From contig JAKFWF010000067.1 in assembly GCA_021730785.1 (NCBI GenBank), positions 1 to 64,000 on the forward strand: DNA of 64,000 bases, in the 5' to 3' direction. Numbering within the stretch: the first letter of the stretch is position 1; every line of letters starts with the position of its first letter. The position numbers were made by a program, and so were the translations under genes. Source of the stretch: Hyphomicrobiaceae bacterium (GTDB lineage: Bacteria > Pseudomonadota > Alphaproteobacteria > Rhizobiales > Hyphomicrobiaceae). This document shows positions 56,582-59,289 of this stretch, in pieces. A model generated the notes under the pieces. It saw nothing but the letters and a program-made list of their open reading frames with translations. It did no database searches and was not told where the DNA came from.

Positions 56582-57724
56582 ATGACCCCGACCGTCCGCC
56601 CCGAATGGACCAGTGCGCGCCGCATCGTCGTCAAGATCGGCTCGGCGCTCCTCGTCGACCGCGCCACCGGACGGCTGCGGGCCACGTGGCTGAACGCGCT
56701 GGCCGATGATGTGGCGACCCTCGTCGACACCGGGAAGGAGGTCATCCTGGTGTCGTCGGGGGCGATCGCGCTTGGCCGCCATGCGCTGGGCCTGCCGAAG
56801 GGCGCGCTCGAACTCGAACAGAGCCAGGCCGCTGCCGCCGTCGGCCAGGTATCGCTGGCGCATGCCTATCAGAACGTGTTCCAGGCCCGGGGGCGGGCGA
56901 CCGCGCAGATTTTGCTCACCCTCGGCGATACCGAGGAGCGGCGGCGCTATCTCAATGCCAGGCGGACGTTCGAGATGCTGCTCGCCCACAAGGCGATCCC
57001 CGTGGTCAACGAGAACGACACGGTGGCCACCGCCGAGATCCGCTATGGCGATAACGACCGCCTGTCCGCCCGCGTTGCCTCGATGGTCAGTGCCGACTGC
57101 CTCGTCCTGCTGTCCGACATCGATGGCCTCTATACGGCCCCGCCCGGCACCGATCCGGCCGCCACGCACATTCCCCTGGTTGATGCCATTACGCCGGAGA
57201 TCGAGGCCATGGCGGGGGACGCAGGCACGGAATTGTCGAAGGGCGGCATGAAGACCAAGGTCGCCGCTGCCCGCATCGCCATGGCCGCCGGCACCGACAT
57301 GGTGATTACGACCGGCAAGCCGCTGCATCCGCTGCGGTTGATCGGCGAGGGGGCGGTGTGCACGTGGTTCATTGCACCGTCCGACCCGGTGACGGCGAAG
57401 AAGCGCTGGATCGCTGGGCAGTTGGAGCCCAAAGGGCACGTCACTGTCGATGTCGGCGCGGAGAAGGCGCTGGGCCAGGGCAAGAGCCTGCTGCCGGCCG
57501 GCGTCACGGCGGTGGCCGGCAGTTTTGACCGCGGCGATGCGGTGATCATCCGCAACGCCCAGGGTCGCGAGCTCGGGCGCGGGCTGATCGCCTACGCGCA
57601 CAGCGATGCGGAACGCATCATCGGCAAGAAGTCGGGCGAGATCGCCGGCATCCTCGGCTTCGAGGGGCGCGCGGAGTTGATCCACCGCGACGACATGGCG
57701 TTAACGCGTATCAGGGACGAGTGA
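56582..57724 (+). CDS. proB: Glutamate 5-kinase
   Basis: [41 protein letters not shown]-terminal PUA-like domain. Confidence 0.97.
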
Positions 57725-57753: not shown

Positions 57754-57859
57754 CGTAGGTTGGGTTAGGATGCCCCGTTGCATCCGTAACCCAACACTTT
57801 GGCACCTCCCGTGGAATGTTGGGTTACGCGCGGAAGTGGCCGCGCTAACCCAACCTACG
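57754..57859. repeat. REP/BIME-like double hairpin between proB and proA
   Basis: Outer 15-bp inverted repeat CGTAGGTTGGGTTAG ... CTAACCCAACCTACG, inner GTAACCCAACA/TGTTGGGTTAC; each half is itself a hairpin. Confidence 0.9.
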
Positions 57860-57911
57860 CCCGATGGCATCGACGTAGCGAACGCGCGAGGCTTCGCCTC
57901 GAGCGCTTTTT

Positions 57912-58002
57912 GACCAGGACCGCGGGCCCTGGACCCGCCTTGCCTAACCGGTTTCCAAAGGGCTAAGCCCTTTGGCGGGGGCAAGGGGCAGCGACCTCTT
58001 GG
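57912..58002. repeat. Dispersed palindromic repeat, copy 2 (upstream of proA)
   Basis: GACCAGGACCGCGGGCCCTGGACCCG..CCAAAGGGC-TAA-GCCCTTTGG CGGGGGCAAGGGGCAGCGACCTC; aligns with copy 1. Confidence 0.8.
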
Positions 58003-58023
58003 CTCTTCACCTGAAGGCCGCAC

Positions 58024-59289
58024 ATGACCGACGACTCCAAATCCATGATGCAAACCATCGGCCGGAACGCCCGTGCGGCGTCGCGCGAGCTGCTGGTGGC
58101 GTCGACGGCGGCAAAACAATCAGCGCTGACGGCTGCGGCGGCGGCCATGCGCGCTGCGACCCCAGCGATCAGCTCGGCCAACACCCGCGATCTCGATGCG
58201 GCGCGGGAAGCCGGCCGGCCGGCCGCGTTCATCGACCGTTTGATGCTCAATCCCGCGCGCATCGAAGCCATCGCTCGCAGCCTCGAAGCGATCGCGGCTC
58301 TGCCCGATCCGGTCGGCGCCAGGATCACGGAGTGGACGCAGCCCAACGGCCTCAAATTCGCCCGCGTTCGCGTGCCGCTCGGCGTCATCGGCATCATTTT
58401 CGAAAGCCGCCCGAATGTGACGGCGGATGCCGGCGCGCTAGCGCTGATGGCCGGCAACGCGTCGATCCTGCGCGCCGGTTCCGAAAGCCGCCATTCGGCC
58501 CAGGCGATCCATGCCTGTCTGCTCGAAGGCCTGCGCGCGGCCGAGCTGCCAGAAGCTGCCATACAACTCGTGCCCACCACGGATCGCGAGGCGGTCGGCT
58601 TGATGCTGGCCGGGCTCGACGGCAACCTCGACGTGATCGTGCCGCGCGGGGGCAAGAGCCTCGTCGCCCGGGTGCAGGCCGATGCCCGCGTGCCGGTGTT
58701 CGCGCACCTGGAAGGCATCTGCCACACCTATGTCGATCGCGGCGCGGACATGGACATCGCCATTCCGCTGGTGCTCAACGCCAAGCTCAGGCGCACCGGC
58801 GTGTGCGGCTCGACCGAGTGCCTGCTGGTCGATTGCGGCGCGCACGAGGATTATCTGACGCCGCTGGTCAAGGCACTCCTTGATGCCGGCTGCGAGGTGC
58901 GCGGCGATGCAGCAACGCAGCAGGTCGATACCCGCGTGAAACCCGCTGCCGCCGACGACTGGGGCTGCGAGTTCCTCGACAACATCATCGCGGTGAAGAC
59001 GGTGGATGGCGTCGATGAGGCCATCGCCCACATCGCGCGTTATGGCTCACAGCATACCGACTGCATCGTCACCGAATGCAACGGCACGGCCGAGCGGTTT
59101 CTCGCCCGCGTCGACAGTGCGATCGTGTTGCACAACGCCTCGACGCAATTTGCCGACGGCGGCGAGTTCGGCTTCGGCGCCGAGATCGGCATCGCCACCG
59201 GGCGCATGCATGCCCGCGGCCCGGTCGGCGTCGAGCAGTTGACCACGTTCAAGTATGTGGTGCGCGGCACCGGCCAGGTGCGGCCGTGA
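58024..59289 (+). CDS. proA: Gamma-glutamyl phosphate reductase
   Basis: [78 protein letters not shown]. Confidence 0.97.

Follow-up and report, generated by a model that had tools for sequence, protein, structure and literature searches.

A GTAG-tagged REP dimer between proB and proA of a Hyphomicrobiaceae bacterium, one of an amplified family most likely mobilised by a single RAYT

The REP elements of E. coli are acted on by TnpA-REP, for which the GTAG tag is essential and required for cleavage; a mid-stem irregularity must also be present, and the stem's upper half plays a structural role (PMC8266576). In Pseudomonas fluorescens SBW25, the mobile unit is the REPIN, composed of two inverted REPs and their spacer, with conserved ends and an interior that carries compensatory changes (Bertels and Rainey 2011, PMC3116915). 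The text of Di Nocera et al. 2013 (PMC3733652) describes GTAG-tagged families of head-to-head heterodimers with the GTAG outside, spacers of 20–100 nt, stems that differ between the two partners, and alternative complementary stem residues within one family. Finally, Coxiella burnetii harbors the REP GTAGGTTGGGCTGAGCTTGCGAAGCCCAAC, associated with the RAYT Cbur (Nunvar et al. 2010, PMC2817692, Table 1).

The element analyzed here lies in a 64,000-nt stretch of a Hyphomicrobiaceae genome (contig JAKFWF010000067.1, hereafter the window), between proB, which ends at 57724, and proA, which starts at 58024, both on the plus strand; obgE is located upstream of the two genes. The initial annotation placed a pair of REP hairpins at this site, and its sequence, coordinates, and flanking genes were found to be exact. 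The pair is a head-to-head REP dimer (BIME/REPIN) of 106 nt. It had been called perfect, which holds for the conserved arms but not for the arms as a whole: the two 43-nt arms (57754–57796 and 57817–57859) are 77% complementary overall, with exact complementarity in the outer 14 nt and the inner 11 nt. Four copies of the arm sequence GTTGGGTTA are present in the window, all of them within the REP pair and in alternating orientations, against 0.03 expected. An unrelated second palindromic repeat (TTTCCAAAGGGCTAAGCCCTTTGGCGGGGGCAAGGGGCAGCGACC) adjoins the pair at 57950–58004 and has about nine other diverged copies in the genome. The features of the pair are as follows.

57754–57859, no strand: whole REP dimer, GTAG tags outermost; pairs of like layout and 101–150 nt occur elsewhere in the genome
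57755–57758, plus strand: GTAG tag of the left REP, from the sequence
57759–57795, plus strand: left REP hairpin, from the fold and the comparison of halves
57759–57767/57787–57795, plus strand: lower stem of the left REP
57768–57773/57780–57785, plus strand: upper stem of the left REP, GGATGC/GCATCC
57774–57779, plus strand: loop of the left REP
57786, plus strand: bulged G of the left REP
57797–57816, no strand: directional spacer with a ACCnCCCGTGGAAT-like motif
57818–57854, minus strand: right REP hairpin, read on that strand, from the fold and the comparison of halves
57854–57846/57826–57818, minus strand: lower stem of the right REP
within 57818–57854, minus strand: upper stem of the right REP, GCGCGG/CCGCGC
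57827, minus strand: bulged G of the right REP
57855–57858, minus strand: GTAG tag of the right REP, from the sequence

This organization resembles that of the E. coli REPs and BIMEs in its GTAG tag, its long hairpin, imperfect and irregular at mid-stem, its conserved lower stem, its upper stem retained as structure only, and its inverted pairing (PMC8266576). It differs from them in the 9-bp lower stem, in the single bulged G that replaces the AA/GC mismatch, in the number of exact cores (about 50), and in its alphaproteobacterial host. The mobile unit has the same composition as the SBW25 REPINs, with conserved ends and a compensated interior, but the core sequence, the copy number, and the length (71 bp between GI 16-mers in SBW25) are different (PMC3116915). 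The Coxiella REP has the same tag and lower stem, and its core GTAGGTTGGGCTG differs at 2 of 13 positions, while its loop is short and a distinct, variable upper stem is not described (PMC2817692). The core found here is absent from the text of Di Nocera et al. 2013 (PMC3733652), its consensus figure aside, and a text search of the literature returned no match to the exact core, GTAGGTTGGGTTA.

A search of the 4.34-Mb genome, as the initial annotation had proposed, detected 50 exact copies of this core and none of its reversed control. When up to two mismatches were allowed, the core gave 115 matches and its control 50, which means that chance accounts in part for the weakest of these matches. 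This copy number is moderate by the standards of a GTAG-tagged REP family. Complete head-to-head pairs of 101–150 nt with the GTAG outside were found at 18 separate places, a tandem array being counted once, and the spacers of most of the other pairs also contain the recurrent motif. The proB-proA element is a miniature element present in this genome in some 20 copies or more. In 12 of the 23 complete pairs examined, every one of the six frames is interrupted by stops, and the long open frames that cross the pairs at loci L038, L045, L002, and L042 have an out-of-frame appearance, as judged by eye. The tandem array (L050:653-1601; G000:C6:140952-141900) comprises six copies of a 158-bp unit that are 95% alike, each unit consisting of a REP pair and 55 bp resembling the 3' end of a coding sequence.

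Each REP half contains GTAG, a 9-bp lower stem (GTTGGGTTA/TAACCCAAC), a single G that bulges out on the 3' side, an upper stem of 6 bp whose sequence is specific to the locus, and a 6-nt loop, and folds as single-stranded DNA with a z-score of about −6. The fold with one bulged base per half that had been proposed from the sequence was recovered, as was the difference between the inner stems of the two halves. The whole 106 nt can alternatively adopt a four-way cloverleaf whose outer stem is 14 bp long (−37.5 kcal/mol, compared with about −31 kcal/mol when the two hairpins fold separately). When the halves from both strands were compared, they had GTAG, the lower stem, and the bulge in common, and varied in the upper stem. 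Watson-Crick pairing in the first five positions of the upper stem, counted across 48 distinct inner sequences read in the GTAG orientation, was 224/240, versus 134 ± 7.5 when the 3' arms were exchanged between sequences (maximum 168 in 5000 trials) and 41 when the bulge was omitted. It should be noted that some halves share ancestry, so this count overstates the number of independent events, although many different stems are present nonetheless. The bulged base is a G in 47 of the 48 halves. The upper stems thus covary strongly, as initially annotated, and the natural variation follows the pattern known for E. coli TnpA-REP: tag, mid-stem irregularity, and structural upper stem. We also observed a longer class of REP halves, with 44–48 nt between the lower-stem arms (L004, L036, L042, L045, L046, and L049), which are mostly the right-hand half when the spacer sets the orientation of the pair and which have the same upper-stem base as the other halves. 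A preference for heterodimers was considered and set aside: identical stems occurred in 0 of 18 pairs, yet random pairing also yields none in 34% of trials, making the observation uninformative.

A RAYT gene encoding a protein of 180 aa is found on the same contig as the proB-proA pair (C5:142593-143132, minus strand). Its product matches NF047646 with 190.4 bits (cut-off 80), and its best and only match in the PDB is E. coli TnpA-REP (4er8, E=2.5e-37), a group 2 RAYT that is its closest solved relative; the REP also has a group-2 layout, and a placement of the RAYT in group 2 is tentative. The reading frame is intact and the catalytic residues are present, the HVH at 59–61 being conserved in 80 of 80 relatives and Tyr130 in 79 of 80. 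Five REP cores surround the gene on both sides, at C5:142242(+), 142470(+), 142522(+), 143203(−), and 143429(+). The proposed link between the hairpins and a REP-associated tyrosine transposase is borne out by this gene flanked by the same hairpin, and the opposite outcome, a unique sequence in a genome lacking a RAYT, was not what we found. The genome encodes two IS200-like genes, one of which is this RAYT. The other, a second Y1 transposase gene (L034:1435-1956; G000:C10), scores 33.7 bits, under the RAYT cut-off of 80, and the closest core found lies about 2.5 kb from it.

We conclude with high confidence that the element is a GTAG-tagged, non-autonomous REPIN/BIME of an amplified family, most likely mobilised by the single RAYT encoded at C5:142593-143132. 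This reading rests on four observations, namely the number of copies, their structure, their covariation, and an intact RAYT gene linked to them, from which we infer recognition, cleavage, and movement by the RAYT in trans. Recognition of the folded single strand by the RAYT most likely depends on the GTAG tag, the bulged G, and the conserved lower stem. Cleavage next to the element would follow, and the single-stranded intermediate would be joined to DNA at another place. In the upper stem, pairing alone would be needed, and its sequence would therefore have drifted by compensatory change.

That the family is instead dead, with old relic copies and a domesticated or inactive RAYT, is unlikely. 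There are just 50 exact copies alongside many variants with one or two mismatches, and movement, which we infer, has never been observed. However, the RAYT frame is intact with its catalytic residues, and the tags and arms are uniform while the upper stems and spacers vary. Moreover, most of the changes that separate this RAYT from a 67%-identical relative are in third codon positions (100, compared with 50 and 39 at the other two); dN/dS was rejected for this comparison because synonymous sites are saturated.

The proB-proA site was also compared with that of relatives, all from other genera. These keep proB adjoining proA, often with little or no gap: where proB lies upstream of proA, the gap is mostly 0–145 nt, versus 299 nt here. 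No full REP pair was found between the two genes in any relative inspected, and a short stretch at L178 resembles the tag. The intergenic DNA is too diverged to be aligned to an exact empty site, and the gap pattern is consistent with a lineage-specific insertion. Absence of the element from orthologous operons largely refutes the view that it evolved in place as a cis-acting RNA of the proBA operon (an attenuator, a riboswitch, or a processing site). The pair does lie between co-directional genes, and the 299-nt intergenic RNA folds strongly (z −6.3), but the same element is present at many unrelated places, and we consider such an origin very improbable. Its one weak Rfam match, radC RNA (RF01754), was rejected: 26.3 bits is below the gathering score of 40, the alignment is out of register with the pair, and the match was obtained at 1 of the 20 loci searched. 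No Rfam family for REPs was detected in a gathering-level search of 20 RAYT loci. Least probable of all is a bidirectional intrinsic terminator separating proB from proA: the hairpins are symmetric, contain G+C, and lie between genes, but neither is followed by a T run, the sole terminator-like site is a separate hairpin outside the pair (57887–57901), and a terminator would leave unexplained the GTAG tags, the link to a RAYT, and the recurrence of the element at many loci. As a mobilised REPIN, once inserted, the pair would lie in any proB-proA transcript, where it could perhaps slow 3'-to-5' decay of the proB part, a role that we propose with low confidence.

Among 100 related genomes, the exact core was detected in 17, a RAYT (E≤1e-10) in 9, and both in 7. 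The core was thus present in 7/9 genomes with a RAYT and 10/91 without (Fisher p=3.6e-5, a value that is indicative, as genomes of one genus are not independent). The ten genomes with a core, in up to 19 copies, and no RAYT found at E≤1e-10 count against the explanation preferred here; gene loss or gaps in fragmented assemblies may account for them. Three genomes without a RAYT at this threshold (G005, G033, and G055) have 9–19 exact cores; their REPs may be orphans, their RAYT may have diverged, or the assemblies may have gaps. Among 288 other genomes drawn from the class, 8 contain the core, in one or two copies each, near the control level.

The 80 RAYT relatives, from many phyla, were chosen on protein similarity alone. 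In 57 of them, a core (≤2 mismatches) lies within 300 bp of the gene, and in 43 on both sides. There were 162 matches in 86 kb near the genes and 47 in 366 kb of distant flanks, and the reversed control gave 4 near the genes, an enrichment of about 15-fold per base over distant flanks and about 40-fold over the control. The commonest variants near the genes are GTAGGTTGGGGTG and GTAGGATGGGTTG. It is possible, as a tentative proposal, that this RAYT clade, which extends from Alpha- to Deltaproteobacteria, Chlorobi, Planctomycetes, and Cyanobacteria, keeps one recognition code, GTAGG(T/A)TGGGNTR plus the bulge, with the upper stem of the REP left free.

The system is of a known type rather than a new one. 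The element has the defining features of BIMEs/REPINs (inverted REPs with a spacer at many loci), of RAYT association (a genomic RAYT gene bordered by inverted copies of the same REP, its product having a family score over the cut-off, an HUH motif, and a catalytic tyrosine), and of GTAG-REPs where these are settled (a short imperfect palindrome that carries a GTRG tag at one end), extragenic bias having been tested in part. Without altering the general picture of REP biology, it adds a well-documented REP/RAYT system for an alphaproteobacterium, probably of the Hyphomicrobiales. Natural variation points to the constrained parts of the hairpin, namely the tag, the lower stem, and the bulged G, whereas the upper stem needs to pair and no more, as in vitro studies of E. 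coli TnpA-REP also indicate. If one code does hold across phyla, this genome, in which one RAYT serves many upper-stem alleles, would amount to a saturation experiment on that code made by nature.
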